The notes under the pieces were generated by a model. It was given only the letters and a program-made list of their open reading frames with translations, was not told the DNA's origin and did no database searches. Shown piece after piece: positions 19,562 through 41,613 of a stretch of 44,637 bases of DNA. The translations under genes were made by a program, and so were the position numbers. How positions within the stretch are numbered: the first letter of the stretch is position 1; each line of letters starts with the position of its first letter. The DNA is from Prosthecobacter debontii. Its GTDB lineage: Bacteria; Verrucomicrobiota; Verrucomicrobiia; Verrucomicrobiales; Verrucomicrobiaceae. Where the stretch lies: the NCBI GenBank assembly GCA_945860295.1, contig CAMAQH010000033.1, positions 1 to 44,637 on the forward strand. Direction: 5' to 3'.

Positions 19562-19663
19562 CGGGCAATGGAGTGCGTGTATAACTACAGCGAACTCGCC
19601 TAAATCTCCAAGTGACGAGCGATCCGACCCTGCCAAAAAAATATTGAGCCATCATGAGATTTA

Positions 19664-19690
19664 TTGTCAAAAGGGAGCCATTTCTGACAA
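19664..19690. promoter_or_regulatory. TTGTCA/TGACAA dyad upstream of the giant CotH gene
   Basis: TTGTCA (19664-19669) and TGACAA (19685-19690) are exact complements separated by 15 bases, ending 19 bases before the chosen ATG at 19710. It could be an operator or a leader hairpin. It shares the core TGTCA...TGACA with the dyad at 16787-16811, but the spacing differs by four bases. Confidence 0.3.
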
Positions 19691-19709
19691 GGTGAGGCTT
19701 AACACATTC

Positions 19710-28700: not shown

Positions 28701-30011
28701 CCGAATCAGGCTCGTGTGACGATCCTCGAAGCCGACACCAAAGCACCAGCCGTGTCGCTGACGACTCCGAGTGCGAATGCGCGCGTAGTTCTGCCATCTG
28801 TCACACTGATCGGTAATGCAACGGATGACAAAGGACTCGGCAAAGTGCAGGTGGCTCTGAATGGTGGCACATTCACGGATGCCGTGACCGCGATCGATGC
28901 AGTTGGCACGGGCGCTAAATGGAGTCTCGCCGTGCCAGCCATCAACGGAGTGAATTCGGTTCAAGTGCGCGCCGTAGATGCGCGTGGACTCACCTCAAAC
29001 GAAGTCGTGCGCACCTTTATCTTCATACCACTGCGACCACTGGACTTAACGATCACGCCTAGCAATGGCGGTACAGTTTCTGGTAGCCTGCCACTGCTTG
29101 AAGTGGGCAAAAGCTACACGCTGACCGCCACGCCCAAGCTGGGATTTCTATTCGATCACTGGACTGGCCCGAGCATAAACAGTGCGGCTAAATCACTGAC
29201 TTTCTCCATGAGCAAAGGCTTGGCGATCACGGCTAACTTTGCCGCGACACCCCTAAGTGCGATCAATGCCGGAAGCTACCTTGGACTGGTCAGTTCTGGG
29301 ATTGGCGTGACACCTCAGCAGGACAATCAAGGACTCATCACGATCACACTCACACCTGCGGCCCTGTTCTCAGGCACACTAAAACTCGGTGAGGCAAATC
29401 ATACCTTTTCAGGAGAGCTGCACCCAGACGGTACTGCGCGTTTTGGCAAAGACCGCTCCGCTTCATTTATGATCTCCCGGGCGGGCCGCACGCCGCTTGT
29501 GCTCTCCCTCCAATTCAATCTGACACTGCGAACCTTCATGGGTCATGTTGGAGAACAAACACGATCAAGTGTGGCAGCAATGTCCGTCTTCGGAGGTGCT
29601 AGAAAACGTGCCGCACTAGCTGTTGATTCTCCTTTGTTGGGTAGTGGTGGAAAGTATCGTACAACACTGGCTCAAGTGAATCCTGTAGCGGGATCTCCCG
29701 GCTATCCGAGTGCCTCCACGAGTCTGCTCATGGGCACCTTATCCAAAGCAGGCGTGCTAACTCTTGTCGGGACGCTTACCGACGGTTCCAAAGTCACCGC
29801 TTCCGCAGATCTCCTGGAATCAGGCCGAATGGCACTTCATGAGTTGCTCGATGCCAAGGCCGGGAGCCTAGCGGCGACATTGGTCTGGAGCGAATCCACT
29901 CCTGGCTTCATGAGCACAGGCGCCCTGTGGTTCAAGCCCGTAACGAATGCCGGAGCGTTCCCCTTCGGCTGGCCGGAAGGGGTGGTCTTCAGTCTCGAAG
30001 GAGAACCCTGA
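19710..30011 (+). CDS. giant secreted CotH-kinase/lamin-tail/Calx-beta surface protein (3,433 residues)
   Basis: Signal peptide 1-29 (MPLFSRSICC...LHGA), then a propeller-like region to about 370. Three DUF11/CARDB repeats start at 373, 504 and 636. Then Calx-beta (about 763-870, NGTATAGTDY), an Ig-like domain (about 876-970), a 'bacterial repeat' (about 971-1045) and an unnamed module ending PFGWPEGV (1283). Next come a lamin-tail domain (about 1418-1540, ISEFMANN), a jelly-roll-like domain split by PA14 (about 1574-1900) and a chitobiase-type domain (YTLDGSMP at 1970). The CotH kinase-like core (about 2065-2490) holds RLRGGFSR and HDFEH (2366-2370). A second YTLDGSDP (2531), jelly roll (2581-2730) and a copy of the 636-1288 block (2772-3424) follow. 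CotH kinases phosphorylate secreted proteins in spore formers; here the substrate is unknown. ATG 19710 was chosen because the signal peptide begins there. Confidence 0.9.
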   Translation: MPLFSRSICCTSLISLLAVLCLPLHGASFTGGNIVVYRIGTGTGSLVNTGNPVFLDEYNVSGTLVQSIALPTVVSGAQKRLVASGTASSEGQMTRSTDGRYLLLPGYDATPPHSSSLISTTSATVNRVIGRVDATGLIDTSTALADAFDANNFRGVCSQNGSQFWVAGNGSIATGGVRYVSALGATTSTQLSTTNINLRQPAIFGGQLYVSSGNGSTVRLGAVGTGLPISASQTITTLPGYPVNLSPNAFVLLDLDSGIAGVDTLYIADDNTTSGGLLKYSFNGTTWTARGSAGAAADLYRGLTVVVTEIPSPAVVLYAVRKGGGAATGGGEIVTLTDSSGSTGTLTETPTLLATAAANTTFRGIALAPQRTDLTVELIGPSSALFTREPFHLRVVTRNSGGGTAYQVGGQFTLPPGLNYVSDTATGTGFQSSFASGVLTYTGGTLAPQTEVTFTVQVVTEIATAYTLGAEAVIVDPLGLLDESDEANNGSTSVGDILVGHAPDLKVSLNAPSTALTDSTGFAEFQYTIIAENEGLANAASVRVALSLPSGLSFVSGSGTGFTAIEAAGVVNLDGMLAADSSTSLTVRVTAAADGSYTAPIGAASIGAQPSNLFVDSDLTNNSSTTAATTEVLTSDLTLSNVANGIFQAGDSASYTITISNVGTGSSEGGVAFSETLPTGFTVTSLTGTGWTIVQGTGASVSATRIDSLAAGQSYPALTLQATIATNAPTSVTSIANVSGGGDFNTANNSASTTTFILSEGPGVISLTSTNFIVNEEALTLSFDLTRTLGRTGAVSVTVMTSNGTATAGTDYTALNTTIEFADKQISRSVIVPLIGDNISEPNETFMITLSAPASGATLGTLSSASALILDPDTTDPKLLMQSPTVSQRLNEGVVTATGEATDNKQVSRVQMRLNNGSFTNAALTPAGAGKVTYSLPLNPVPGLNVIRVIASDFRGNETDELLRSFSYVVKRPLTLTNGTGVTVTPAEPLTALELTKTYTLTAKPSGGKVWNGWSSPQLTLTEAQRLSKTLNLTMTEGLSITANTVDDPFLPSVVGDYSGLVRADTVITPTHENEGAIQVKISPTGSFTGTLRIAGVSLPFIGVLDTEGIARFDSALETTVLLARAPQAGYVLAFTADLGAKRITGALRRQTRLGSEPLSIIEANRHVGAATETFYTWAMPAQLQTSGLTAIQYPQGDGVGSMKLSKLGAATLAGVLADGTNFTSSAAMGADMSLPMFVSLERGAGSLNGWLAVDHTRPDSDISCSALNWFKPVIAVATHYPFGWPEGVTLPLIGARFSVPVSESVLPDLSAVLGANALLRFTQGALTRALQKELIISAKNLVTKEPASNPSYTMKLTTTTGQFTGSFTHRDGAVANYTGVILQKGTNRRGFGHFLTAKPKVITGAGQSGVVSLKTKFNPRLTLVISEFMANNASTIADEDAAFSDWIEIYNPGLEEVNLTDWYLTDSASLLSKWRFPNVTLASREFIIVWASSKNHRTPGQPLHTNFNLSAGGEYLALVRPDGVTVEHEFSPVYPAQANDESYGINFTGTALLSQGTAVKYHVPTNATLGTTWTAKDFADSSWTSGKTGIGFGVGVPGFTVRQVAAKPAFGGVNSIATCEALLALPKGHANILSEATVIAPLINYVGDGSDGNYADGAALPNGTAEPYAFKATGILTIPAAGSYVFGLNSDDGGRIKIDGIAVMRDDTNHGPEDHLSAPVTLTEGPHTVEVIMWEGAGGDCVEFYAKAGTDTAWNTDFKLVGSAGGLPVVTIPLTATGAASSVISTNVQATMRTKNASCYMRLPFTATSVSSLTGLTLRMRYNDGFIAYLNGTEVARRNTPMITAFDSAAILARSATETLTAEILDLSAHIPLLVSGTNVLAIHGLNDTRDEDSFLVLPELSATAGLAGNAVFFRPTDTTITATPGTLNGTPLFVEVVQPLVFSQKHGFYQSPISLAITTATPGASIRYTLDGSMPTATKGTVYSGPISVSKTSIVRAIGYKSGSEPTSLLTQSYLFLDDIIRQSATGTRPATGWPVGAVNGQVSDYGMDPDIVNNTNPEIGGLDKVKSALTAIPTISIVTDLPNLFSTDSGIWVNPYGRGEAWERPASVEMIGDSGPEGGFEINCGLRLRGGFSRSGDNPKHALRLFFRSEYGASKLNYPLFGNEGASTFDKIDFRTSQNYSWSFGGDGNNTFIREESTRELLGAMGQPYTRSRYYHLYLNGQYWGLYESEERPEAAFAETYIGGDADDYDTVKGEQDQGYITGVTDGNLDAWEELRVKARAHAGAPTNANFFAISGKAADGLTPTADPVLLEVDNLIDYMLLTFWSGNLDGATSAFLGDSRANNWFAVRNRLGAQGGFRFFAHDFEHTFFNVDEDRTGPFASGDPTLVETYNPMFIHHDLRPNAEYCIMWADRVQQHLFGQGALTPDQVQTRMRARTALLDKVIIAESARWGDAKRGTDSPLTRQDWQGAVSYVINDYVPQRGSRVLAQLREDGLYPSFDAPSLSQNGGPIASGAEVVITSNGGTIHYTLDGSDPRQIGGTLNPTAQTYTSSTESSTVVPLSQSWKYLADGSNQGTAWRASTFDDSTWSSGAAELGYGDGDEVTMVPFVDAQSDVSGIQKNATTYFRTSFQVPNLAGLTSTELRVKYDDAVILYLNGTEVARSPNIGSDASYDQYASGTAPDEAAFFTFQVNSSLLMAGTNVLTAEVHQATPDSSDISFQASLIVTRSDTPSPLVFMGSGSRTLKVRARQNDEWSALVETNFEVSQAPDLTTALGHTTPFIAGSNGSYMLIVMNGGSVPTSDLVTLTATLPEGLSATSLSGSGWTILQGTGSNVRATYSGAVPAVTAYPQLTLNVAIASTAPDYVSTSLTASGGGEITTSNNSSTHLTPVSSVGDSQFAFSHSAFASPEADGVAAVTILRTGNRSGAATVRLTTSNGTAKSSSDYSAQEVLLNFADGESAQTVQISISTDSITEIHEHFTVKLDSVTGAAALGLPNQARVTILEADTKAPAVSLTTPSANARVVLPSVTLIGNATDDKGLGKVQVALNGGTFTDAVTAIDAVGTGAKWSLAVPAINGVNSVQVRAVDARGLTSNEVVRTFIFIPLRPLDLTITPSNGGTVSGSLPLLEVGKSYTLTATPKLGFLFDHWTGPSINSAAKSLTFSMSKGLAITANFAATPLSAINAGSYLGLVSSGIGVTPQQDNQGLITITLTPAALFSGTLKLGEANHTFSGELHPDGTARFGKDRSASFMISRAGRTPLVLSLQFNLTLRTFMGHVGEQTRSSVAAMSVFGGARKRAALAVDSPLLGSGGKYRTTLAQVNPVAGSPGYPSASTSLLMGTLSKAGVLTLVGTLTDGSKVTASADLLESGRMALHELLDAKAGSLAATLVWSESTPGFMSTGALWFKPVTNAGAFPFGWPEGVVFSLEGEP
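20826..21990 (+). repeat. three tandem DUF11/CARDB-type repeats, period about 131 residues
   Basis: Within the CotH protein three beta-sandwich repeats begin with similar strands: DLTVELIGPSSALF (residue 373), DLKVSLNAPSTAL (504) and DLTLSNVANGIF (636). Start-to-start spacing is 131 and 132 residues. Each has a 'GLxFVSxxGTGF' or 'TVTSLTGTGWT'-type centre. A fourth related unit begins at residue 2772. Such domains are spacers in surface adhesins. Confidence 0.7.
21615..23573 (+). repeat. long internal duplication of the CotH protein, copy A (N-terminal wing)
   Basis: Residues 636-1288. Order: DUF11, Calx-beta, Ig-like, 'bacterial repeat', then an unnamed module starting DYSGLV and ending WFKPV...PFGWPEGV. 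Landmarks measured from D636: N of NGTA +167, K of KTYTLTA +361, Y of DYSGLV +422, F of FGWPEG +647. The same landmarks occur in the same order in copy B. Confidence 0.8.
28023..29981 (+). repeat. long internal duplication of the CotH protein, copy B (C-terminal wing)
   Basis: Residues 2772-3424. Landmarks measured from D2772: N of NGTA +167, K of KSYTLTA +362, Y of SYLGLV +418, F of FGWPEG +647. Overall length equals copy A exactly between the outer landmarks, with only small offsets inside. The copies are clearly diverged at protein and DNA level, so the duplication is old and selected for. Confidence 0.8.
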
Positions 30012-30015
30012 TGGA

Positions 30016-31455
30016 TCAGGCAATCAACTCTTCCACCACACTGCATTCGTTCACACCGGTCAGACGAAAATCGAGGCCAGCGTACTTGTAGGTGAAGCGC
30101 TCGTGATCGAATCCGAGCAACTTCAGCAGCGTGGCGTGCAGGTCGTGGACGTGGACTTTGTTTTCGATAGCGGCAAAGCCGAATTCATCCGTGGCACCAT
30201 GGGTGTAACCACCTTTGGCACCACCACCTGCGAGCCAGTAACTGAAGCCGTAGTGATTGTGGTCACGACCGCGCTGTTTGCCAGCGTTGGAGCCGGGTGT
30301 TGGCAGTTCGACAGCAGGTGTACGGCCAAACTCACCGCCCCAAATCATAAGTGTGTCGTCGAAGAGACCACGCTGCTTCATGTCATACATGAAAGCGGCG
30401 ATTGCTTGGTCCACATTCTTCGCGAGACGCGCGTGATCGAGAATTTCATCATGGCTGTCCCAGGGCTGACCTGCTCCGGTCCAAAGCTGAATGAAGCGGA
30501 CACCGCGCTCCAGCAAGCGACGCGCAATCAGCGTCTGTCTGCCAAAGGGGTTCTCGCCATAAGCCTGGCGCACGGCTTCAGACTCCTTGCTAATGTCGAA
30601 GGCATCTGTCGCTTCCATCTGCATCCGGTAAGCGAGTTCGTAGCTTTGGATGCGTGCATCGAGCTGCTGATCATTCTGGCGCTGCTTGAGATGATTTTCG
30701 TTCAGTTCATGCAGCAGATCGAGCTGGCGACGCTGTTGCTTGAGATCGAGCGAGCCGTTCTTGATAAACTCCACCAACTTATCCACGTCTGTGTCTTCGG
30801 TGTTGATGTAAGTGCCCTGATAAACGCTTGGCAGAAAAGCAGACTGCCAGTTCTTCGTGCGCCGTGTCGGCATGCCATTAGGGCACATGGAGATGTAACC
30901 CGGCAGGTTTTCATTTTCGGAACCCAAACCATAAGTCACCCACGAACCGAAGCTGGGACGATGCAAACGACCATCACCGCAGTTCATCAAACCGAGAGAA
31001 GGCTCATGATTCGGGACATCGGCATACATGGAGCGGATGACGCAAAGGTCATCGGCAAACTCGGCAGTTTTGGCAAAGATCTCGCTCACTTCCAAGCCGC
31101 ACTGGCCGTACTTCTGAAACTTGAACGGCGACTTCAAGCCCGCGCCCGTGGGACGTTCCGTCTTTAGCAAACTAGGCAGCGCCTTGCCATCATACTTCTC
31201 AAGCATCGGCTTCGGATCAAAGGTATCCACCTGTGACGGGCCGCCATTCATGAAGAAGTGAATCACGCGCTTTGCCTTCGGTTCAAAATGCGACTGCCGC
31301 ACACCGAACGGATTCGTGGCATTCAATCCAGCCTGAGCCTTGCCAGCGCCTATGAGTTCGCCAAGGGCAACGGCCCCCATTCCCATGCCCATGCGATTGA
31401 GCAACTGGCGGCGGGTGAGAAAACGGTGTTCGAGATTCGGGGCGTGATGGGACAT
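30016..31455 (-). CDS. DUF1501 protein (sulfatase-like fold), Tat-exported
   Basis: The 479-residue product begins with a twin-arginine signal (FLTRRQLLNRMGMG, hydrophobic to about residue 36). It then shows DUF1501 features: HFFMNGGPSQVDTFDPK, NHEPSLGLMNCGDG, FIQLWTGAGQPWDSH and MIWGGEFGRTP, with a later RDHNHYGFSYWLAGGG. The fold is related to alkaline phosphatase/sulfatase enzymes, but no activity is established for the family. In planctomycetes and verrucomicrobia it nearly always pairs with a PSD1/DUF1549 cytochrome gene, as here. It converges with the CotH gene, four bases separating the stops. Confidence 0.93.
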   Translation of the reverse strand: MSHHAPNLEHRFLTRRQLLNRMGMGMGAVALGELIGAGKAQAGLNATNPFGVRQSHFEPKAKRVIHFFMNGGPSQVDTFDPKPMLEKYDGKALPSLLKTERPTGAGLKSPFKFQKYGQCGLEVSEIFAKTAEFADDLCVIRSMYADVPNHEPSLGLMNCGDGRLHRPSFGSWVTYGLGSENENLPGYISMCPNGMPTRRTKNWQSAFLPSVYQGTYINTEDTDVDKLVEFIKNGSLDLKQQRRQLDLLHELNENHLKQRQNDQQLDARIQSYELAYRMQMEATDAFDISKESEAVRQAYGENPFGRQTLIARRLLERGVRFIQLWTGAGQPWDSHDEILDHARLAKNVDQAIAAFMYDMKQRGLFDDTLMIWGGEFGRTPAVELPTPGSNAGKQRGRDHNHYGFSYWLAGGGAKGGYTHGATDEFGFAAIENKVHVHDLHATLLKLLGFDHERFTYKYAGLDFRLTGVNECSVVEELIA

Positions 31456-31712: not shown

Positions 31713-34700
31713 TCAGTCCACAAACTGAAACTCGTTCGACATCATCAGCACCTGCGCGAACTGCGACAGGGTTGATTGGGGTTTCGGGCGCTTGAGCGGC
31801 CAACCTTCAGGACCGCAGAAGTCGGTGTCGGCCTTGGTGATGACAGTGGCCTGACCAGTGAGTTGGTCAATGCGCTCAATGACGGGCACCCAGGTGAAGC
31901 TGTCACTGTTCGTGTCTTGGTTTTCAGATTCGATGACAAACGAAAGCACCTCGTTTTGACTGACTTCGAGTTCGGCGCTCATCTCGACGCTATCGACAGG
32001 TTTTAGCAACTGTTCACGCACCTTGCCTGCGCGATTGGAGATGATCCAGGCGCGGATGCCGTTGCCTGCTTCGTTGCTGCGTTTGACGGTGCCACGGATG
32101 CGGATCAGCTCTTTCTCAAAGGGAGAGGTCCACTGCATCACCACCGGCCATTTGCTGCCGGGGTGACCACTGCCTGCACCCATGAAGAGATGACCGTATT
32201 GTTTGTCAGGATACTTCGGCGCAGGATACCAGCGCGTCGTGCTCTGGCCCATCTTGCCGTAGTGTTTGAAGGCCTCGAAGCCTGCAAGAGACACCTTACC
32301 CGTGGCCGCATCTTTCTCCACCTGACCAGAGCCGTAGCGCCACACGAAAGCATTGCCACGACGGCTAAGGTTTTCAGCATCGTTGACGAAACGTTGCGCG
32401 ATTTCAATCTCTTCAGGCTTGGCATCACGATGCAGCACACGGTGATACATCGACTGGATGACTTGCGAGTCGGTGGTGCTGCCTGGAACCGGTGCCTGCG
32501 ATGCGGCGCGCATGGCACGCTGACTCATGAAGGGGCTGTTCATCAAAAACAAAGCCTGCTGCGGCACAGTGGTGACGTAGCGCATCGGGCTGTGATTGTC
32601 TGGATTCGCAAAGTCGAACATCGCCGGCACGGTGGCCTGATCATAACGATTCACGATGAGGTAAACACTGCGGCGGGTGTCGGCGTCCTTGTCGGTGAGT
32701 TCCACGGCGCGTCCACCTGCCTTGCTCAGATCGAGATCGCTGGTGGCTTGCAGCATGGCATCACGCATCGATTCATAATCGAGGCGCTGGCGGTTGTAGT
32801 GGCCGAGCAGATCGTTCTCGGCATCCTTGATATCCTTATGCGGCGTGCTCTGAGCGCTCTGTTGATAGGTGCGGCTGGTGAGAATCACCTGATGCAGCTT
32901 CTTCAAGCTCCAGCCATTTTCCATGAGCGTCGCGGCCAGGTAATCGAGCATGTCAGCCTGCGCAGGCTTCGGTGACTGCACACCGAAGTCGCTCGTCTGC
33001 CCAACCAATGGTTTGCCAAAATGCTGCGTCCAAATGCGGTTCACGATCACACGAGCAGTCAGTGGGTTGTCCTTGCTGGCGATCTTCTTCGCCAGCTCGA
33101 GGCGTCCGCTGCCATCGGTGAACTTCTCGCCACCGAACATCGTCAGCCAGGCGCGTGGCGCGGCATCACCCTGACGCGCTGGATTGCCACGGACAAAAAC
33201 ATGCACGTCACTCGGCTTCGGCTTGTCGAGCGAGACCATGGCGCGTGGTGGTGCACCAGGGTGGCCGGATTCCAGCTTCACTCGCTCGTTGCTGAGTTTA
33301 ACGATAGTGTCCAGATCCCGGCGGGTGAAAAAGAGGTTCGCTTCTTCCACAGGCACAGCCATTGGCGAGGGGTCGCTTTGCAGGATCTCGCGCACCTGTT
33401 TCCAGTCAGCGTTGTCAGGCTCCTTACCGTCGAGGCAGGCGGCAAAGATCTGCGCATAGACAGTGGCAACCTCCTGGAGACTCTTCGGCGCAGGGCGCTT
33501 GGTGAATTCATTGCGCGCCACGGCATTCATGCCGCGCTCAGGCTTGGAGATGGCGGCTATCACCGCAGGTGCCTTCGCGGCAAACTCCGATGCTGACAGC
33601 GCGGCGAATTCTTTCCATGCGAGCATCACGGGATGCGGCTTGTCCTTCAAGGCATAGCGCAGCAGGAAGTCGCCCCACTTGTCCGCCACTTTCTCACGCA
33701 GCTTGAGTTGCCCGGCGCGGCCTTTGAGGGTGTTGCGTTCTTTGATGAAGGCCGCCTCTTGGGCAAAGGCAAGGTACTCGGCCATGCGCTCCGGCTTGCG
33801 GATCTCTTCATGAACGGTGCGCTTGAAGTCCATCTCCTTCTTGGCGATCTCCGCAACCTTGCCTTCATACTCGTGGAAGGTCTGCTCGTTCGCTGGCTTG
33901 CCGATCATCGGTAGATCCTTTTGGTCCGGCTCCATGCTGCTGCTGAAAATGGAATACATGGCGTAGTAATCCTTGCTTGGGATGGGATCAAACTTGTGGT
34001 TATGGCAGCGCGCGCAGCCGATGGTGATCCCCAGCATCCCACGGCTGACGACATCAATGCGGTCGTCGATTTGCAGATTTCGATCACTGATGAAACGGTC
34101 GCCCACATTCAGGAATCCAAGCGCCGCAAGTGAGGGGTGAGTGGGTTCGTTCGGGTGCAGCTTGTCCGCCGCGAGTTGGTGCATGAGAAACTGGTCATAC
34201 GGCAGGTCTTCATTCAGTGATTTCACCACCCAATCACGGAAGGTGTAGGCATATGGGTAATTGATGTTTTTGGCGGCGACCTGATAGCCGTCCGTGTCGG
34301 CATAGCGAGCTACATCCAGCCAGACACGAGCCCAGCGCTCACCGTAGGCCGGGGTGGCGAGGAGCTTCATGATTAGTTTCTCCGCATTCGGTTCCTTAAT
34401 GAACGACTGCACGTCTTCATAGCTCGGCTGCAAGCCCGTCAGCGTCACAAACAAGCGGCGGCAAAGTGTGGCAGGATCAGCGGCTAAGGCAAAGTCCAAG
34501 CCTGCGGCTTTGAGTTTTGGCTCTACTAGCGCATCGATCGAACTGGTTGCAGGTTTCTTCACTGGCAGATAGGCCCAGTGCTGCATCGGGTCCGGCTTCG
34601 GGTGTATATCCACCACCTCTTTCTCTACTGGCCAGGGCAGGCCTATCTTCACCCATTTTTCCAGCAGCACGATCTGCGCAGGCTTCAGCTTGTCACCCTT

Positions 34701-35015
34701 CTTTGGCATCGCTTCCACGCCTGGGGCATGATTGATGGCCTTGATCAGCTTCGAGATGGCCGGATTCCCTGGCTCCACTACCTTGCCATAGTCACTCCCA
34801 CGCAGGATGGCGCTGCGCAGGTCCAGGCGCAGGCCGTTTTCGTGCTTGTGGGCACTGTGGCAGTCGTAGCAGTTGTCCGCCAGCAGCGGGCGGATCTCTT
34901 TCTCAAAGAAGACGATCTGCTCCGGCGGAAAGGCATCGGCAGCATGGGCTTGAGTCACATGAATGGCGAGGGCGCCACCCATCAGAGTCAGCAGGTGTGG
35001 AAAACGGGAAATCAT
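31713..35015 (-). CDS. PSD1/DUF1549-DUF1553 planctomycete-type cytochrome c protein
   Basis: The 1,100-residue exported protein (signal peptide about 1-25) begins with a planctomycete cytochrome C domain carrying C49-Y-D-C52-H53 and the following HKHENGLRLDLRSA. A DUF1549 domain comes next (about 155-370, PAYGERWARVWLDVARYADTD, CARCHNHKFDP with a second C-x-x-C-H). The C-terminal DUF1553/PSD1 domain lies about 620-960 (NPLTARVIVNRIWTQHFG, SRTYQQSA, PQQALFLMNSPF). A beta-rich insert near 960-1070 precedes the end. These proteins always accompany DUF1501 proteins and are thought to act in the periplasm on polymer-derived substrates; no reaction is known. Here a tiny ParE-like gene sits between the two partners. 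Confidence 0.93.
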   Translation of the reverse strand: MISRFPHLLTLMGGALAIHVTQAHAADAFPPEQIVFFEKEIRPLLADNCYDCHSAHKHENGLRLDLRSAILRGSDYGKVVEPGNPAISKLIKAINHAPGVEAMPKKGDKLKPAQIVLLEKWVKIGLPWPVEKEVVDIHPKPDPMQHWAYLPVKKPATSSIDALVEPKLKAAGLDFALAADPATLCRRLFVTLTGLQPSYEDVQSFIKEPNAEKLIMKLLATPAYGERWARVWLDVARYADTDGYQVAAKNINYPYAYTFRDWVVKSLNEDLPYDQFLMHQLAADKLHPNEPTHPSLAALGFLNVGDRFISDRNLQIDDRIDVVSRGMLGITIGCARCHNHKFDPIPSKDYYAMYSIFSSSMEPDQKDLPMIGKPANEQTFHEYEGKVAEIAKKEMDFKRTVHEEIRKPERMAEYLAFAQEAAFIKERNTLKGRAGQLKLREKVADKWGDFLLRYALKDKPHPVMLAWKEFAALSASEFAAKAPAVIAAISKPERGMNAVARNEFTKRPAPKSLQEVATVYAQIFAACLDGKEPDNADWKQVREILQSDPSPMAVPVEEANLFFTRRDLDTIVKLSNERVKLESGHPGAPPRAMVSLDKPKPSDVHVFVRGNPARQGDAAPRAWLTMFGGEKFTDGSGRLELAKKIASKDNPLTARVIVNRIWTQHFGKPLVGQTSDFGVQSPKPAQADMLDYLAATLMENGWSLKKLHQVILTSRTYQQSAQSTPHKDIKDAENDLLGHYNRQRLDYESMRDAMLQATSDLDLSKAGGRAVELTDKDADTRRSVYLIVNRYDQATVPAMFDFANPDNHSPMRYVTTVPQQALFLMNSPFMSQRAMRAASQAPVPGSTTDSQVIQSMYHRVLHRDAKPEEIEIAQRFVNDAENLSRRGNAFVWRYGSGQVEKDAATGKVSLAGFEAFKHYGKMGQSTTRWYPAPKYPDKQYGHLFMGAGSGHPGSKWPVVMQWTSPFEKELIRIRGTVKRSNEAGNGIRAWIISNRAGKVREQLLKPVDSVEMSAELEVSQNEVLSFVIESENQDTNSDSFTWVPVIERIDQLTGQATVITKADTDFCGPEGWPLKRPKPQSTLSQFAQVLMMSNEFQFVD

Positions 35016-35174
35016 CGGGGGGAATGACAGAACTGGGGCGGCTGTAATGCCACATCAAACAAACGCAAGTTTCAGGGCGCTCCTTGCAGGTTCAGCGGGG
35101 TGTCGTGGGTTCATGGATGCCATGAAAACTTCGCGGTTGCGCGGCTGCATGGCTGCATCCTTCATCGTGACCTT

Positions 35175-35861
35175 ATGGATCCTATCTCCAACACGACTCC
35201 GCTCATTCTCCCTTCATTGCTGGCTTCAGATTGGTCAAAGATCGGCTCGGAGGTGCATCGTGCTGAACAGGCTGGGGCGCAGTGGCTGCATCTGGATGTG
35301 ATGGACGGCAGCTTTGTCGATAACATCTCCTTTGGCCCGCAAATGGTTCAGACGGTGCGTATGTGCAGCGGCTTGTATCTAGACGTGCATCTCATGATGC
35401 ACCGTGCCGATCACTATTTAGAACGCTTCCTCAAAGCTGGGGCGGATAATATCACGATCCATGTTGAAGCGGACTACGATACGTCCGTGCTCGACACCCT
35501 GCGTCGCATCCGAGCTGCTGGCAAACATGCCGGACTCGCACTGCACCCTGACACGCCTTTTGAGGCGGTCATTCCGTATGCGCATGAGATTGATCTGTTG
35601 CTGATCATGACCGTCGTCCCCGGCTTCGGTGGTCAGCCCTTCATGGAAAAGGAAACCATGCCAAAGCTGGCCGCCGCGCGTGATTACCGCGATGCTCATG
35701 GCCTTAAATACCACCTCGAAGTGGATGGCGGTATCTATATGTATACAGCCCCGATTGCGAAGCAGCATGGCGCGAATCTTTTCGTCTGCGGCACCTCCTT
35801 CTTCGGTCCGCCAGATGCGAAAGTGGCGATAGAGCAGTTAGCCGCAGCGGTCGCTGATTGA
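35175..35861 (+). CDS. rpe: ribulose-phosphate 3-epimerase
   Basis: The 228-residue TIM-barrel enzyme interconverts ribulose 5-phosphate and xylulose 5-phosphate in the pentose phosphate pathway. Motifs: LILPSLLASDW at the first strand, WLHLDVMDGSFVDN with the metal-ligand Asp, DVHLMM, MTVVPGFGGQPFM and LEVDGGI with the second catalytic Asp. Length is normal. ATG 35175 is preferred because the conserved part starts nine residues later; an ATG at 35100 would add an unrelated leader. It is divergent from the PSD1 gene and followed after 67 bases by a sugar kinase gene, so it may head the polyphosphate cluster. Confidence 0.94.
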   Translation: MDPISNTTPLILPSLLASDWSKIGSEVHRAEQAGAQWLHLDVMDGSFVDNISFGPQMVQTVRMCSGLYLDVHLMMHRADHYLERFLKAGADNITIHVEADYDTSVLDTLRRIRAAGKHAGLALHPDTPFEAVIPYAHEIDLLLIMTVVPGFGGQPFMEKETMPKLAAARDYRDAHGLKYHLEVDGGIYMYTAPIAKQHGANLFVCGTSFFGPPDAKVAIEQLAAAVAD

Positions 35862-35928
35862 GGGTCGTCTGCACGAGAAACTGGGTTGTCACTTGCCCAC
35901 AGGGGGCCGTCCGTGCTCTGTTGGGGAC

Positions 35929-37020
35929 ATGGCAAATAAGAACACCAAAACCAAGGCGATAGCCAAGCCCATAAAGTCCAAAGCCACTCAGTCTGAAAAG
36001 ATCAAGCCGGCCAAGGCCAAGCCAGCGGGCAGCTCTGCGGTTAAATTTAAATCCATACCTTTCTGGATCGGGTTCGATCTAGGTGGCACCAAGATGCTGG
36101 CCTGCGTGCTGGATAATGATTACAAGGTTCTGGGTTCGGCACGGAAATCGACCAGCGGCTCAGATGGTCAGGTCAAGGGGCGGCAAAAGATTCTCAAGGC
36201 CATCCATGAAGCGATCGCTAATGCAGGCGTGGACCCAAAGGGACTGCAAGGCATCGGCATTGGCTGCCCAGGATTGGTGAATCCAGAGAAGGGCATTTTG
36301 ATCAATGCGCCGAACCTCGGCTGGAACAACATGGGCCTGACGACAACGCTGAAGGGTGTCTTTAAAAAACCTGTGGCGGTGCTCAATGATGTGGATGCTG
36401 GCACCTTTGGTGAATACAAGCTCGGTGCAGGCAAGGGCGCACGCTCACTGCTCGGTGTGTTTCCCGGCACGGGAGTCGGAGCGGGCTTTGTGTACGATGG
36501 TAAGCTGATCATGGGGCGCACCGTCTCCGCCATGGAACTGGGCATGATTTACCTGCCTGGCACGCATCTTGGCAGTCCAGAGGCGGGCACAGTTTTGCTG
36601 GAGGACCTGACCAGTCGGCTCGCGCTGGCCAGTCAGGCGGGAATCGCTTGCTATCGCGGTCAGTTGCCTGAGCTCGATAAAAAGACCCGTGGCAATCTGC
36701 GTGACATCCGCAGCAAGGCTCTCGCGACTGCCTTGAAGACGGGAGAAGAAGCCTCGATAATCATGTTCCGTAACTCTCTACGCTACCTCGGCATGGGAGT
36801 CGCCGCTGTGGTGAACTTGCTGGCCCCAGATCACATCACACTCGGCGGTGGGCTGGTCGAAGAATTGCCTGATTTGTATTTAAATCTGCTCAAGGAAGAA
36901 GTTGCGCGTTTCGCCGTGCCTGGACTTGCCAAGGGACTCAAGTATTCAATCGCCAAACTCGGCGGCACCGCCGTGGCCGCAGGGTCAGTGGCGTGGCTGC
37001 GACAGAGGGAGGGCAAGTAA
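35929..37020 (+). CDS. ROK-family sugar kinase with lysine-rich N-terminal tail and no zinc motif
   Basis: The 363-residue protein starts with about 40 disordered residues, 12 of them lysine and one glutamate. The kinase follows with phosphate loop DLGGTK (50-55), GIGIGCPGLVN, catalytic Asp in LNDVDAGTFGEY (D154), FPGTGVGAGFV and the late GGGLVEE loop. ROK glucokinases normally carry E-L-G-H followed by a C-x-C-G-x-x-G-C zinc site; here it reads E203-L-G-M206 and the cysteines are absent. Glucokinase is the likeliest activity, but sugar and phosphate donor are unknown. Polyphosphate glucokinases belong to this family and ppk lies two genes downstream. It ends three bases before the Ppx-like gene. 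Confidence 0.87.
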   Translation: MANKNTKTKAIAKPIKSKATQSEKIKPAKAKPAGSSAVKFKSIPFWIGFDLGGTKMLACVLDNDYKVLGSARKSTSGSDGQVKGRQKILKAIHEAIANAGVDPKGLQGIGIGCPGLVNPEKGILINAPNLGWNNMGLTTTLKGVFKKPVAVLNDVDAGTFGEYKLGAGKGARSLLGVFPGTGVGAGFVYDGKLIMGRTVSAMELGMIYLPGTHLGSPEAGTVLLEDLTSRLALASQAGIACYRGQLPELDKKTRGNLRDIRSKALATALKTGEEASIIMFRNSLRYLGMGVAAVVNLLAPDHITLGGGLVEELPDLYLNLLKEEVARFAVPGLAKGLKYSIAKLGGTAVAAGSVAWLRQREGK

Positions 37021-37023
37021 ACT

Positions 37024-38565
37024 ATGAATGAACTACCCGCGAACCCCGCCGAGCAGGCCGTGATCTATGTCGGCGCAGCCTCGCTCTCAATGGTCATCGG
37101 CACCAAGAACGTCGCCAAAGGCTTCCATGAAGTGGAGCATCTGGACCGCCCTCTTCCCATAGCGCGAGACATCTTCCGCTCAGGCACTTTGACACGAAGT
37201 ACGATGGAGCAGGCAGCGGGCATCCTGCGTGATTTTTTGCGCACCGCGCGTGAGTACAGCCTGCCTCTTGAGGCCATCCGGCTCTACACTACCAACATCC
37301 TTTCAGAAGCCACGAATCACGAGATCTTCCTCAATCGCCTGCAAGTCACCACCGGCCTCAGTGCACGCCTCATCGATGACGGCGACATGACACGCCTCGT
37401 CTATCAGATCGCACGTCGTCTGCTGGAAAAGAATCCCAAGCTCGCCGAGGGCCACACCTTCGTCTCCCACATCGGACCGGGGAATACGCGGGCGCTGTAT
37501 TTCAAACAAGGCCGCCTCGCCGCTTACAGCAACTATCGCCTCGGTATCTTCCGCGCTCGCGAGGCGGTGGCCGGTATGGACAGTGAATCGCCGCAGCATC
37601 TCTCTCATCTCGAAGAGCAAATTCGCGGCGTGGTAGATCACTTGGCCCAAGATTATGCAGGCTACAAAATGGACCACCATGTGGCCATTGGAGCCGAGAT
37701 TCAAAGCGTCGCCGAGCAGCTCGCGACACCCAAACTGGGCGTCTTCAGAATCAATGAAGATGACCTGGAAGTATTCACCGAAAAGCTCGCCGCCCTGAGT
37801 CCTGATGAGCTCGTGCGCCGACTGCACATGCATTACACCGGCGGTGAAGGCATCGTGCCTGCACTGCAAACCAATCTCGCCCTAGCGCGCCGTTTTGGGG
37901 ACAAAACCATGTGGGTGCCACAGGGTGATTTTCAGCGTGAACTGATGCAGGATCTCGTCACCTCCCGACCACGCACGGCCACCTTTCAAGAAGAAGTCAT
38001 GCAAGCCGCTGGTGAAGTTGGCGCCCGCTACAAGACCGACCGCAAGCACGCCGAACACGTCGCCAACTTTGCTCAGCAACTCTTCCGTGAACTGCAACAC
38101 CTGCACACCCTGGAGCCGCGCTATGAACTCGTGCTGCGGGTCGCCGCCATGCTGCATGAGGTGGGCATGTTCATCAGCCCGCGTGAGCACCACAAACACA
38201 GCCTCTACATCCTTCTGCAAACCGAGATCTTCGGCCTGAGCACGAGCGAGCGTGAACTCGTAGCGCTGCTGGCGCGCTACCACCGCCGCTACAATCCAGA
38301 GCGCAATCACCCTCACTTTTCCGACCTCTCGCGCGAGGAGCGCATGGTCGTATTCAAACTTGCCGCTCTACTCCGTATCGCCGATGCCCTGGACCGCAGT
38401 CATGCCCAGCGCATCAAGACCATCCAACTCCGCCCCGAAGGCAGCCGCCTCACCATTGTGACCCCCGGTATCGAAGACACCACCATCGAGCAAATCGCCA
38501 TCAATTCAAAGAGCGACATCTTCCGCGAAATCTACGGCTTCGACATCGTGCTAGCACAACCCTGA
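37024..38565 (+). CDS. Ppx/GppA-like protein with degenerate active site and HD-type domain
   Basis: The 513-residue protein follows the Ppx/GppA layout: two ASKHA-type halves (about 10-310) and a C-terminal HD-type helical domain (about 320-510) with H342, H378-E379 in MLHEVG, and EHHKHSLYILLQ. The helical part keeps the E. coli Ppx pattern. The phosphatase site does not: the AIDxGSNS motif reads VIYVGAAS (Y15), the GGGSTE loop reads H149-I-GPGNT-R156 (Asp to His, Glu to Arg), and the catalytic Glu segment reads GDMTR (120-124). Exopolyphosphatase or pppGpp hydrolysis is therefore unlikely, and a sensor or HD-domain hydrolase role is inferred. ppk starts ten bases after its stop. Confidence 0.87.
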   Translation: MNELPANPAEQAVIYVGAASLSMVIGTKNVAKGFHEVEHLDRPLPIARDIFRSGTLTRSTMEQAAGILRDFLRTAREYSLPLEAIRLYTTNILSEATNHEIFLNRLQVTTGLSARLIDDGDMTRLVYQIARRLLEKNPKLAEGHTFVSHIGPGNTRALYFKQGRLAAYSNYRLGIFRAREAVAGMDSESPQHLSHLEEQIRGVVDHLAQDYAGYKMDHHVAIGAEIQSVAEQLATPKLGVFRINEDDLEVFTEKLAALSPDELVRRLHMHYTGGEGIVPALQTNLALARRFGDKTMWVPQGDFQRELMQDLVTSRPRTATFQEEVMQAAGEVGARYKTDRKHAEHVANFAQQLFRELQHLHTLEPRYELVLRVAAMLHEVGMFISPREHHKHSLYILLQTEIFGLSTSERELVALLARYHRRYNPERNHPHFSDLSREERMVVFKLAALLRIADALDRSHAQRIKTIQLRPEGSRLTIVTPGIEDTTIEQIAINSKSDIFREIYGFDIVLAQP

Positions 38566-38575
38566 TCCCCTTCCC

Positions 38576-40681
38576 ATGCCCTACCCTGAAGATCATTTCC
38601 TAAACCGAGAGCTGAGTTGGCTCGCTTTCAATGAACGCGTGCTCGCTGAAGCTGCGCGTGAAGAACTGCCCGTGCTAGAGCGCGTGAAGTTCCTGGCCAT
38701 CACTGCATCAAACTTTGACGAGTTCTTTATGGTGCGCGTCGGCGCCCTGCAATTCATGCGGGACAAAGGCCTGCGGGCCAAAGATCCTAGCGGCCTGACA
38801 CCGAGCCAGCAGTGGGATCAAATCCACGAGCGCGTCTCCGCCTTCATCGCTCGTCAGTATGAGATTCTCGGTCTGCATCTCATTCCGTTGATGCGAGAGA
38901 AAGGCATCCGCCGACTTTTGCCAGATGAACTGACTCCCACTCAGCGCACGCACTTGGAGGACCACTTCATGGAGCATATCTTCCCCGTGCTCTCACCCAT
39001 CGCGCTTGACGAGTCACCTCGCGCCAATATTCCCGCGCTTCAAATTGCTCTGCTTTGCTCGATCCTCAGTGAGACGAATGATAAGCCCTCACGCCGCCTC
39101 GTTCTCTTCACTCTGCCTAGCAGTCTGCCGCGCCACATCACGGTGCCAGATGCTGAGGGTGTGCAGCACGCTTACCTGAATCTTGAGGACGTGCTCACCC
39201 TGTTCCTCCATCATTACTTTCCCTCTGAAAAGGTCACCGGCTCAGCGCGCTTCCGCATCAGTCGGAACTCAGACATCGCTGCTGACGATGACGCCGTCGA
39301 AGACCTTGCTGCGGCCATGGAGGGCATCCTCGATAAGCGCCTGCAAAGCCCCGCCATCCGCATCGAAATCGAAGAAGGTGCACGCCGCGATCTCGTCGCG
39401 GCCATCCGTGACATGTGCGAAGCAAAAAACGCCCAAGTCTTCACCATTCCTGGCGAACTGGATCTGACCGCGTATTTTGCCATCGCTGGATTGCAGGGGT
39501 TCGATGCGCTTAAAGTCGAATCATGGATCGCTCAAACGCCTCCCGAGATCGACCCTAGCGAAAGCATGTTTGAAGCTATCAAACGTAGCGACATCCTTCT
39601 GCATCATCCCTATGAGGCCTTTGAACCCGTGGTGAAACTCATTGAGGAAGCCGCCAGCGATCCCAACGTCATCGCCATAAAACAGATCCTTTATCGCACG
39701 GCAAAAAATAGCCGAATCGTCGCAGCCTTGGTGCGTGCGGCAGAGGCTGGTAAGCACGTCACCGTGCTCGTCGAATTGAAGGCCCGCTTTGATGAAGCCC
39801 GCAATCTGGATCGTGCCAATGACCTGCTCAATGCCGGTGCCCAAATCATCTATGGCGTCCACGGTTTAAAAACCCACGCCAAGGTCTGCCTCATCATGCG
39901 CCGTGAGTCTGGGCATCTTGTGCGCTACATGCATTTTGGCACGGGCAATTACAACGAGGCCACCTCAAAGCTCTACACCGACATCAGCTACCTCACCTGC
40001 CGCACCGACTACGCCAGTGATGCCAGTGCCTTTTTCAACACCGTCACCGGACGCTCACGTTTCGTGCATTTCCAAAAGATCAGCATGGCTCCCTTTGGCC
40101 TACGTGAGCGCTTGCTCAGCATGATCCGCAGTGAGACCGAGCGTGCGAAGCAGAAAGAGCACGCCGAGATCATGCTCAAGATGAACTCGCTGGAAGATCG
40201 TGAGATGATCGAAGCTCTCTACGAAGCCTCACAAGCAGGTGTGCAGATCAAGCTCAATGTGCGCGGCATCTGCTGCCTGCGCCCTGGAGTCAAAAGCCTG
40301 AGTGAAAAGATCAGCGTCATCAGCATCATCGACCGCTACCTGGAACACGCGCGCATTTATATTTTCCGTCAGGGTGGACGTCATTCCGTTTTCATTTCCA
40401 GCGCGGACTTCATGAATCGCAACCTCTCTAAGCGAGTCGAGCTGCTCGTTCCTGTCGAGGATAAGGAGGCCAAGAAACGCCTCATCCACATTCTCGAAAC
40501 ACATTTCACCGACACCGCTCGTGGCCGAACTCTGCGCCCTGACGGCACCTGGCATCAAGCCACCGCACCCGCTAAGAAAGCTCTGCGCTCTCAGGAGGTC
40601 TTTGCCAAAGAAGCCGCCAAACGCAGCAAGCAACGCAACCAAGCACCCGACGTCCTCGTCCCGCACATGCCAAAAGTGTAG
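38576..40681 (+). CDS. ppk: polyphosphate kinase 1
   Basis: The 701-residue enzyme polymerises the gamma-phosphate of ATP into inorganic polyphosphate. All four PPK1 domains are present: N-terminal helical (FLNRELSWLAFNERVL), head domain, and two phospholipase-D-like C-terminal domains. The autophosphorylated histidine is H434 in HGLKTHAKV, and the second catalytic histidine is H591 in YLEHARIYIF. Both align with H435 and H592 of the E. coli enzyme. A Lys-rich tail of about 30 residues (AKEAAKRSKQRNQ) ends the protein. It is the last gene of the rpe-ROK-Ppx-like-ppk run; 65 bases separate it from the next gene. Confidence 0.96.
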   Translation: MPYPEDHFLNRELSWLAFNERVLAEAAREELPVLERVKFLAITASNFDEFFMVRVGALQFMRDKGLRAKDPSGLTPSQQWDQIHERVSAFIARQYEILGLHLIPLMREKGIRRLLPDELTPTQRTHLEDHFMEHIFPVLSPIALDESPRANIPALQIALLCSILSETNDKPSRRLVLFTLPSSLPRHITVPDAEGVQHAYLNLEDVLTLFLHHYFPSEKVTGSARFRISRNSDIAADDDAVEDLAAAMEGILDKRLQSPAIRIEIEEGARRDLVAAIRDMCEAKNAQVFTIPGELDLTAYFAIAGLQGFDALKVESWIAQTPPEIDPSESMFEAIKRSDILLHHPYEAFEPVVKLIEEAASDPNVIAIKQILYRTAKNSRIVAALVRAAEAGKHVTVLVELKARFDEARNLDRANDLLNAGAQIIYGVHGLKTHAKVCLIMRRESGHLVRYMHFGTGNYNEATSKLYTDISYLTCRTDYASDASAFFNTVTGRSRFVHFQKISMAPFGLRERLLSMIRSETERAKQKEHAEIMLKMNSLEDREMIEALYEASQAGVQIKLNVRGICCLRPGVKSLSEKISVISIIDRYLEHARIYIFRQGGRHSVFISSADFMNRNLSKRVELLVPVEDKEAKKRLIHILETHFTDTARGRTLRPDGTWHQATAPAKKALRSQEVFAKEAAKRSKQRNQAPDVLVPHMPKV

Positions 40682-40746
40682 TCCTCTAACTCTCCATTCT
40701 TCCTGCACTAACAGAGCAGATACTAAATTCCAGACACTCCAGCCTA

Positions 40747-41613
40747 ATGAGAATCCTCCAACTTTGCCTCCTGGCCAGTGTGCCTTTCGCACACGCTGCC
40801 GAACTCGTGATTCCTGACAGTTTGAGCTTCGAGAAAGGCATCGAGTTTTCCAATTCAGCGGATCAACACCTGCAACTCAACATCGCCCGCCCTAAGAGTG
40901 CGAGTGGTGCGCTGCCGACCATCCTTTGCATTCATGGTGGCGGATTCCGAGCGGGTACTCGCGAAAGCCACGACAAGCTGTGCATCACACTCGCCAGCCA
41001 TGGATATGTCGCTGCAACCATGACCTATCGTCTTGCACCTACTTTCCCCTTCCCTGCCGCCGTGATCGATTGCAAAGCCGCCGTTCGCTGGCTGCGAGCC
41101 AATGCTGAAAAGCACCATGTCGACCCAAAGAGGCTCGGCGTGACTGGAGGATCAGCCGGTGGACATTTGGTACAGTTTCTCGGCGTGACTTCTGACGTCG
41201 AAGAGTTCGACGTCGGCAACCACATTGATCAATCAAGTGCCGTGTCCTGCGTGGTGAACTATTACGGACCGAGTGATCTCACCAAGTCCTATGGCAAGAG
41301 CGTCGATGCGGCCGAAGTGCTGCCGCTATTTTTTGGTGGTGCGCTCGACACCAAGCTCAAAGAACATGTGCGTGGCAGCCCCTTGTATTGGGTGACCCCG
41401 AATGCCGCGCCCACCCTGATCATTCACGGCACCAACGACAAGTATGTGAATTACGAACAAGCCGGCTGGATGGTGGACAAACTCAAGGCCGCGCAAGTCG
41501 AGGTCGAACTACTCACCCTAACCGGAGCCGGACACGGCTTCAAAGGCCCCGATGCCGAAAAGGCTGAAGTTGCGATGATTGAGTTCTTTGATCGTCATCT
41601 CAAGACGCCGTAA
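40747..41613 (+). CDS. secreted alpha/beta-hydrolase (carboxylesterase type)
   Basis: The 288-residue protein has a signal peptide (1-17, ending AHA). The esterase/BD-FAE-like fold shows oxyanion motif HGGG (from H63), nucleophile S136 in GGSAGG, Asp D231 in HGTNDKYV and His H263 in GAGHGF, a complete triad. Homologues remove acetyl or feruloyl groups from polysaccharides or hydrolyse small esters; the substrate is not readable. No lyase or glycosidase neighbours it. It may be separate from the ppk operon, since 65 bases without a clear terminator lie between. Confidence 0.88.
   Translation: MRILQLCLLASVPFAHAAELVIPDSLSFEKGIEFSNSADQHLQLNIARPKSASGALPTILCIHGGGFRAGTRESHDKLCITLASHGYVAATMTYRLAPTFPFPAAVIDCKAAVRWLRANAEKHHVDPKRLGVTGGSAGGHLVQFLGVTSDVEEFDVGNHIDQSSAVSCVVNYYGPSDLTKSYGKSVDAAEVLPLFFGGALDTKLKEHVRGSPLYWVTPNAAPTLIIHGTNDKYVNYEQAGWMVDKLKAAQVEVELLTLTGAGHGFKGPDAEKAEVAMIEFFDRHLKTP

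Follow-up and report, generated by a model that had tools for sequence, protein, structure and literature searches.

A conserved gene module of a ROK kinase, a Ppx-like protein predicted to lack catalysis, and PPK1 in Verrucomicrobiota

The closest described counterparts of the locus considered here are the Ppx/GppA exopolyphosphatases, such as those of E. coli and D. radiodurans, and the ROK-family glucokinases that use ATP or polyphosphate. For the former, as described in PMC3411833, the catalytic positions of MTB-PPX1 are Arg84, Glu112, Asp135 and Glu142, that is, a catalytic Arg and Glu and a metal-binding Asp and Glu, and the C-terminal region of E. coli PPX is said to bind the polyphosphate chain. 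The same source describes Rv1026, a member of the Ppx family that keeps its catalytic residues and had no detectable exopolyphosphatase activity or pppGpp hydrolysis; residues alone therefore do not settle activity. For the ROK kinases, PMC6406325 describes the zinc motif CxCGxxGCxE in the B. subtilis ATP glucokinase and reports methanotroph polyphosphate glucokinases without it. Here we analyse a window of 44,637 nucleotides, the whole of contig CAMAQH010000033.1 (C33) in the 4.68 Mb assembly GCA_945860295.1 of Prosthecobacter debontii (order Verrucomicrobiales), in which genes for a ROK-family kinase, a Ppx-like protein (PPXL) and polyphosphate kinase 1 (PPK1) follow one another behind rpe. 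The sequences of these genes and their relatives indicate that the last three form a conserved module, and that PPXL is an exopolyphosphatase homologue from which the catalytic residues have been lost.

All four genes lie on the + strand with spacings of 67, 3 and 10 bases in order, in agreement with the original prediction, and its assignment of them to the rpe, ROK, Ppx-like and PPK1 families was upheld by profile matches in every case:

35175..35861 (+): rpe, ribulose-phosphate 3-epimerase (Ribul_P_3_epim, 203 bits; TIGR01163, 216.8 bits, cut-off 212.6)
35929..37020 (+): ROK-family kinase without the zinc motif (PF00480, 149.6 bits)
35929..36066 (+): Lys-rich tail at the N-terminus of the ROK kinase, residues 1-46 (residue count; low model confidence)
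36535..36546 (+): ELGM at the place of the ROK EXGH motif, with the His replaced
37024..38565 (+): PPXL, a pseudo-exopolyphosphatase with a C-terminal HD-like domain (PF02541, PF21447)
37375..37398 (+): DDGDMTRL in place of the catalytic-Glu loop (M122; from the alignment)
37468..37491 (+): HIGPGNTR in place of the metal-binding DxGGGSTE (H149, R156; from the alignment)
38014..38430 (+): HD-like domain III of PPXL, residues 331-469 (PF21447)
38576..40681 (+): ppk1, polyphosphate kinase 1 (TIGR03705, 793 bits, cut-off 465.85, an equivalog-level match)

Scans of positions 34900-40900 found one promoter-like site, where shuffled sequence gave an expectation of 2.5, and 11 terminator-like sites against an expectation of 5.4, and neither result informs the ends of the operon.

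Catalytic residues of the Ppx-like proteins

PPXL belongs to the Ppx family by domain content and fold. It matches Ppx-GppA at 39.7 bits and Ppx-GppA_III at 106 bits, with PF02541 and PF21447 above their cut-offs, and its structural model (predicted local distance difference test score, pLDDT, 91.6) resembles the exopolyphosphatase 3mdq (Z 28.5, 3.2 Å over 301 residues) and E. coli PPX 2flo (Z 26.8, 6.9 Å over 481 residues); for Ppx/GppA chains spanning the N-terminal part, Z ranged from 23.0 to 28.5. The protein thus shares its domain order, fold and C-terminal HD-like domain with E. coli PPX and D. radiodurans PPX, but unlike them it has all four catalytic positions replaced, by S94, M122, H149 and R156, and carries the new motifs DDGxMTRL and HxGPGNTR. 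It was originally proposed that the Ppx-like partner lacks the residues needed for degradation, and this proved correct. Like Rv1026, PPXL belongs to the Ppx family; unlike Rv1026, which is reported to keep the catalytic residues (PMC3411833), PPXL has lost them.

The replacements are not peculiar to P. debontii. In an alignment of PPXL proteins from the order (48 rows from Verrucomicrobiaceae, the window's own family, and 21 others, after exclusion of 16 redundant or truncated loci; 69 rows, of which 68 are distinct because the genome G055 is represented twice), Met, His and Arg occupy the last three catalytic positions in 69 of 69 rows, and Arg occupies the first in none. D118, G120 and M122 of IDDGxMTRL are likewise present in every row, as are seven of the eight positions of HxGPGNTR. 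GPGNAR replaces GPGNTR in three other PPXL loci (L178, L181 and L183). HxGPGNTR was also seen in 77 of 80 named loci, a count that is not independent evidence because the seed patterns of the search included HxGPGNTR. As the replacement motifs are nearly invariant, strong constraint and not decay is indicated, and the PPXL of the order is, judged by its sequence, a Ppx protein without its catalytic residues. In the C-terminal domain, H392, Y395, R418, Y419, H420, P425 and R451 are invariant in 16 of 16 proteins of the order and in 93 of 93 PPK1-linked Ppx proteins of other classes.

Loss of catalytic residues also characterizes PPK1-linked Ppx proteins outside the order. When the catalytic quartets were read from one MAFFT alignment of 116 Ppx proteins (16 from the order and 100 from other lineages), the full quartet was found in three (L206, L209 and L223), one of which, L223, has no PPK1 beside it. 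The full quartet is thus present in 2 of 93 PPK1-linked copies from other classes versus 36 of 39 scorable stand-alone copies; the accompanying Fisher value of 2e-26 takes no account of relatedness. Apart from the 12 that retain both catalytic Glu residues, the linked copies lost one or more residues in many different ways, which suggests that catalytic loss occurred repeatedly among these proteins. The 40 loci of the stand-alone control came from the high-scoring end of the PF02541 list and from G082, and one of them (L330) was in the wrong reading frame; being drawn from high PF02541 scores, the control leans towards canonical sequences. None of the 40 lay within 14 kb of PPK1 when compared by eye with the PPK1 positions listed; that list gives no position for PPK1 in G312, G308 and G385 or for the second PPK1 of G254, and in G308 and G385 PPK1 adjoins the module copy. 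A comparison within single genomes gave the same picture: of 18 genomes in which both kinds of Ppx were read, 15 have an intact stand-alone copy and none has an intact module copy. PPK1 was present in the module locus read for 17 of these 18 and was not seen in the G312 locus.

Within the order, among the matches listed for 112 genomes, the PF02541 cut-off was exceeded outside PPXL only in G082, itself without PPXL, and weak second Ppx matches below the cut-off occur in G013, G100 and G103.

Linkage of the genes across the order and phylum

To place the locus in its wider context, 112 genomes of the order were searched for PPXL, PPK1 and the ROK orthologue, and the positions were then compared. 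PPXL is present in 72, PPK1 in 109 and the ROK orthologue (E<1e-30) in 65. ROK and PPXL adjoin in 36 of the 37 genomes with both genes, and PPXL and PPK1 in 46 of 71, a count from which contig ends were not excluded. In Verrucomicrobiaceae, the ROK-PPXL pair occurs in 33 of 33 genomes and the complete ROK-PPXL-PPK1 triplet in 21; among Akkermansia and its kin, the PPXL-PPK1 pair occurs in 20 of 31 genomes, and the Ppx-like gene of the module is also found in records labelled Akkermansia muciniphila.

The arrangement extends beyond the order. In a survey of 288 genomes of the phylum with profiles built from two alignments (A1 and A2), the matches listed for other classes included 65 genomes with both a ROK orthologue (at least 200 bits) and a Ppx. 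The two genes were on one contig in 52 of these, and in 50 of the 52, a count that omits partial Ppx matches, ROK is the immediate upstream neighbour of Ppx, no more than 500 bases distant and on the same strand. PPK1 is close by as well: 100 Ppx loci were read from other lineages, and 93 have it at most 375 bases away on the same strand. In a tree of 37 ROK proteins, the 17 members from the order form one clade (97/96) beside the ROK proteins of other classes, which is consistent with vertical inheritance. We conclude from gene order that ROK-PPXL-PPK1 is a conserved three-gene module, predicted to serve polyphosphate, in Verrucomicrobiales and in other classes.

The original prediction had described a four-gene system and put forward gene-order conservation in relatives as a check. 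Three of the four genes passed it and rpe did not. Of the 45 loci that extend at least 900 bases upstream, one, that of the window, has rpe next to ROK, and tblastn matches to rpe came only from loci of the same genome (L001, L002 and L186); rpe was accordingly rejected as a member of the unit. With rpe outside the unit, the proposed feed of sugar phosphates into the pentose pathway near rpe finds no support. No further recurrent gene emerged when the neighbours in 46 loci were clustered: ROK and PPXL were present in all 46, PPK1 in 20, antisense frames over these genes in 40 and the next protein cluster in six. In both the 46-locus and the 45-locus counts, loci were not deduplicated by genome.

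The ROK kinase and the proposed role of the module

The ROK fold, the DxGGT motif, the catalytic Asp and the ATP-binding motifs are all present in the kinase of the window. D50, D154, E203, E225, T181-G182 and G306-G308 are invariant in 31 aligned ROK proteins, and the catalytic Asp154, Glu203 and Glu225 together with the ATP motifs (GTGxG, GGG) are invariant or nearly so in the ROK alignments. The model (pLDDT 85.9) is close to glucokinase 2qm1 (Z 34.4, 3.3 Å over 317 residues). The closest solved relatives by sequence are ROK glucokinases, and by fold glucokinases are tied with N-acetylmannosamine kinases; fold similarity does not tell kinases that use ATP from those that use polyphosphate, as the polyphosphate glucokinase 1woq ranked 32nd of the best 50 rows, all of ROK or hexokinase type. 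Like the ATP glucokinases of S. griseus (3vgk) and E. faecalis (2qm1), the protein keeps the catalytic Asp and ATP motifs; unlike them, it has lost the zinc cysteines and the EXGH histidine and is encoded together with ppk1. In the ROK alignment of the order (67 rows, 66 distinct with G055 again twice, after exclusion of 17 redundant or truncated loci), all 48 rows from Verrucomicrobiaceae have Asn, Met or Leu at the His position of EXGH, and 11 of the 19 others have His. The zinc motif, which is not universal in the ROK family, was absent from 18 of 18 and 7 of 7 ROK sequences examined from the order, and 48 of the 49 ROK proteins encoded next to Ppx in other lineages have it. The genome of the window encodes four further ROK genes, on contigs C4 (L225), C10, C38 and C64, and L225 also lacks the zinc cysteines.

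The kinase resembles polyphosphate glucokinases (PPGKs) in its ROK fold (1woq, Z 26.6, 2.4 Å over 248 residues), in its genomic tie to polyphosphate and, with the methanotroph enzymes as reported in PMC6406325, in the missing zinc motif; this last likeness is a hint only. It differs from them in its Lys-rich tail, the lack of an EXGH histidine and its score of 43.2 bits on the PPGK model NF045942 against a cut-off of 250, and in that a PPGK clade (100/99) excludes all 25 module ROK proteins. Membership of the PPGK family was rejected on this score and tree, for which 10 of 15 fetched PPGK loci were used and two of the four further ROK genes of the same genome were omitted; because of two long branches (L228 and L221), the placement of the PPGK clade is settled only as to its separateness. 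PPGKs above the NF045942 cut-off occur in 24 of the 288 genomes of the phylum, all in other orders of the same class, and none was matched at E<=1e-20 among the genomes sampled from the order. The PPGK loci L230-L244, from other orders of the class, are in genomes without a module ROK of at least 200 bits among the matches listed, and it is possible that PPGK replaces the module ROK there.

The basic tail noted in the original prediction is indeed present, at the N-terminus, with 12 Lys and one Glu in residues 1-46. Its residues 1-35 are modelled at pLDDT under 50, and the tail is probably disordered. Of 90 tails read, from loci not deduplicated by genome, 89 carry a net positive charge. The Lys-rich tail is typical of Verrucomicrobiaceae, and many other module ROK proteins have a short one or none, including those read from other classes and from direct ROK-PPK1 loci; it is therefore no general requirement, and the suggestion that it is the key polyphosphate site is weakened.

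We propose that PPXL is a non-hydrolytic polyphosphate-binding partner of PPK1, a model to which, taken as a whole, we give even chances. In this model PPK1 would make polyphosphate, as established enzymology implies, and PPXL would bind polyphosphate (or nucleotide) without hydrolysis through its cleft and its C-terminal domain, because that domain is kept and is described as the chain-binding region of E. coli PPX (PMC3411833). By their linkage, PPXL might have a sensing or regulatory role towards PPK1 and the ROK kinase, and the kinase might be tied to polyphosphate either as a donor or by regulation through PPXL. The kinase itself probably phosphorylates sugars, with an activity linked to polyphosphate; that polyphosphate is itself its phosphate donor we consider unlikely. 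The broadest form of the proposal is that PPK1-linked pseudo-exopolyphosphatases across the phylum lost catalysis several times and sense or present polyphosphate, and that Verrucomicrobiales gained a GPGNTR-type binding motif and a ROK kinase using polyphosphate independently of PPGKs; this is speculative and, in our judgement, improbable as a whole.

A number of observations weigh against the model of PPXL as a non-hydrolytic partner. Both catalytic Glu residues are retained in 12 of the 93 linked copies (two intact, eight with only Asp changed to Glu, giving REEE, and two more without the Asp), and some of these copies may therefore still be active; conversely, the full quartet is also missing in 3 of the 39 scorable stand-alone Ppx proteins. 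The evidence for polyphosphate binding consists of domain conservation and fold similarity. The genes are, moreover, separable. PPK1 does not adjoin PPXL in 12 of the 33 Verrucomicrobiaceae genomes; none of the 31 Akkermansia-like genomes has the ROK orthologue at E<1e-30, their other ROK proteins (about 150-162 bits on the A2 profile) being treated as paralogues; and in 26 genomes of a third family (f3) ROK and PPK1 were found and PPXL was not, with ROK and PPK1 apart in 20 of them.

The remaining six f3 genomes bear on a different explanation, in essence the original proposal minus rpe. On this view, a sugar kinase that depends on polyphosphate arose in the ROK protein separately from known PPGKs, and PPXL holds or delivers polyphosphate to it. 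There ROK adjoins PPK1 in the absence of PPXL, in three arrangements (ROK to PPK1, PPK1 to ROK, and divergent), which favours this account, as do the lack of PPGK matches in the sampled genomes of the order when 24 genomes of the phylum have one, the missing zinc motif shared with the methanotroph enzymes and the Lys-rich tail in Verrucomicrobiaceae. However, the ATP-type motifs are intact, the PPGK score is far under its cut-off with the protein outside the PPGK clade, many module kinases have a short tail or none, and the ROK proteins encoded by this operon in other lineages almost always keep the zinc motif that PMC6406325 describes for an ATP glucokinase, so that we regard this account as possible but on the unlikely side. 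In one of the six genomes, G127, the ROK match contains an in-frame stop. The six loci (L087, L095, L091, L092, L093 and L089) carry two very different types of PPK1, with about 32-33% and 45-47% identity to the PPK1 of the window.

If PPXL were instead still a hydrolase, acting through an active site rebuilt around M122, H149 and R156 or through its HD-like domain, the near invariance of the replacement motif would be accounted for, as would the retention of H378, E379 and D454 of the HD-like domain in 16 of 16 proteins of the order and the finding of G082 alone with another Ppx above the PF02541 cut-off among the matches listed. Yet PPXL has lost the catalytic Glu and both of the acidic metal ligands, with no acidic residue in their places, the C-terminal residues are common to solved Ppx proteins such as 8jgo, and hydrolysis is assigned to the N-terminal site in PMC3411833; we find a hydrolase decidedly unlikely. 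An old shared operon without joint mechanism, with an ordinary ATP sugar kinase and a drifting PPXL, would fit the occurrence of each gene without another in some families. It is very doubtful, since the order is kept in nearly all same-contig cases listed from other classes, ROK and PPK1 are adjacent in three arrangements, and the motifs of PPXL are nearly invariant, hence not drifting.

To our knowledge, how bacteria sense and set their polyphosphate levels is largely open. On the non-hydrolytic reading of PPXL preferred here, a Ppx without catalysis beside PPK1, found in 15 genomes of other classes together with an intact stand-alone Ppx, is a candidate polyphosphate sensor, and its ROK partner is a candidate new type of polyphosphate-linked sugar kinase that is directly testable. 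Annotations of "exopolyphosphatase" adjoining ppk1 in the phylum call for care. The component families are known; among the matches listed from the open-licence part of PubMed Central, no title or abstract start described a ROK-Ppx-PPK1 operon or a PPK1-linked pseudo-Ppx, and the combination and the widespread catalytic loss of Ppx beside PPK1 are without a match there.

Neighbouring genes

Upstream of the module, an open frame of 3455 residues at 19644-30011 (+) contains Calx-beta, DUF11, CotH kinase, lamin-tail, PA14 and Ig-like domains, and its product is a giant modular protein, probably secreted. It is followed on the opposite strand by a DUF1501 gene (30016-31455), which adjoins a gene at 31713-35015 (-) for a PSCyt1-PSCyt2-PSD1 protein of 1100 residues, of the planctomycete-type cytochrome family. 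PSCyt1-PSCyt2-PSD1 and DUF1501 genes are a familiar pairing in the phylum.

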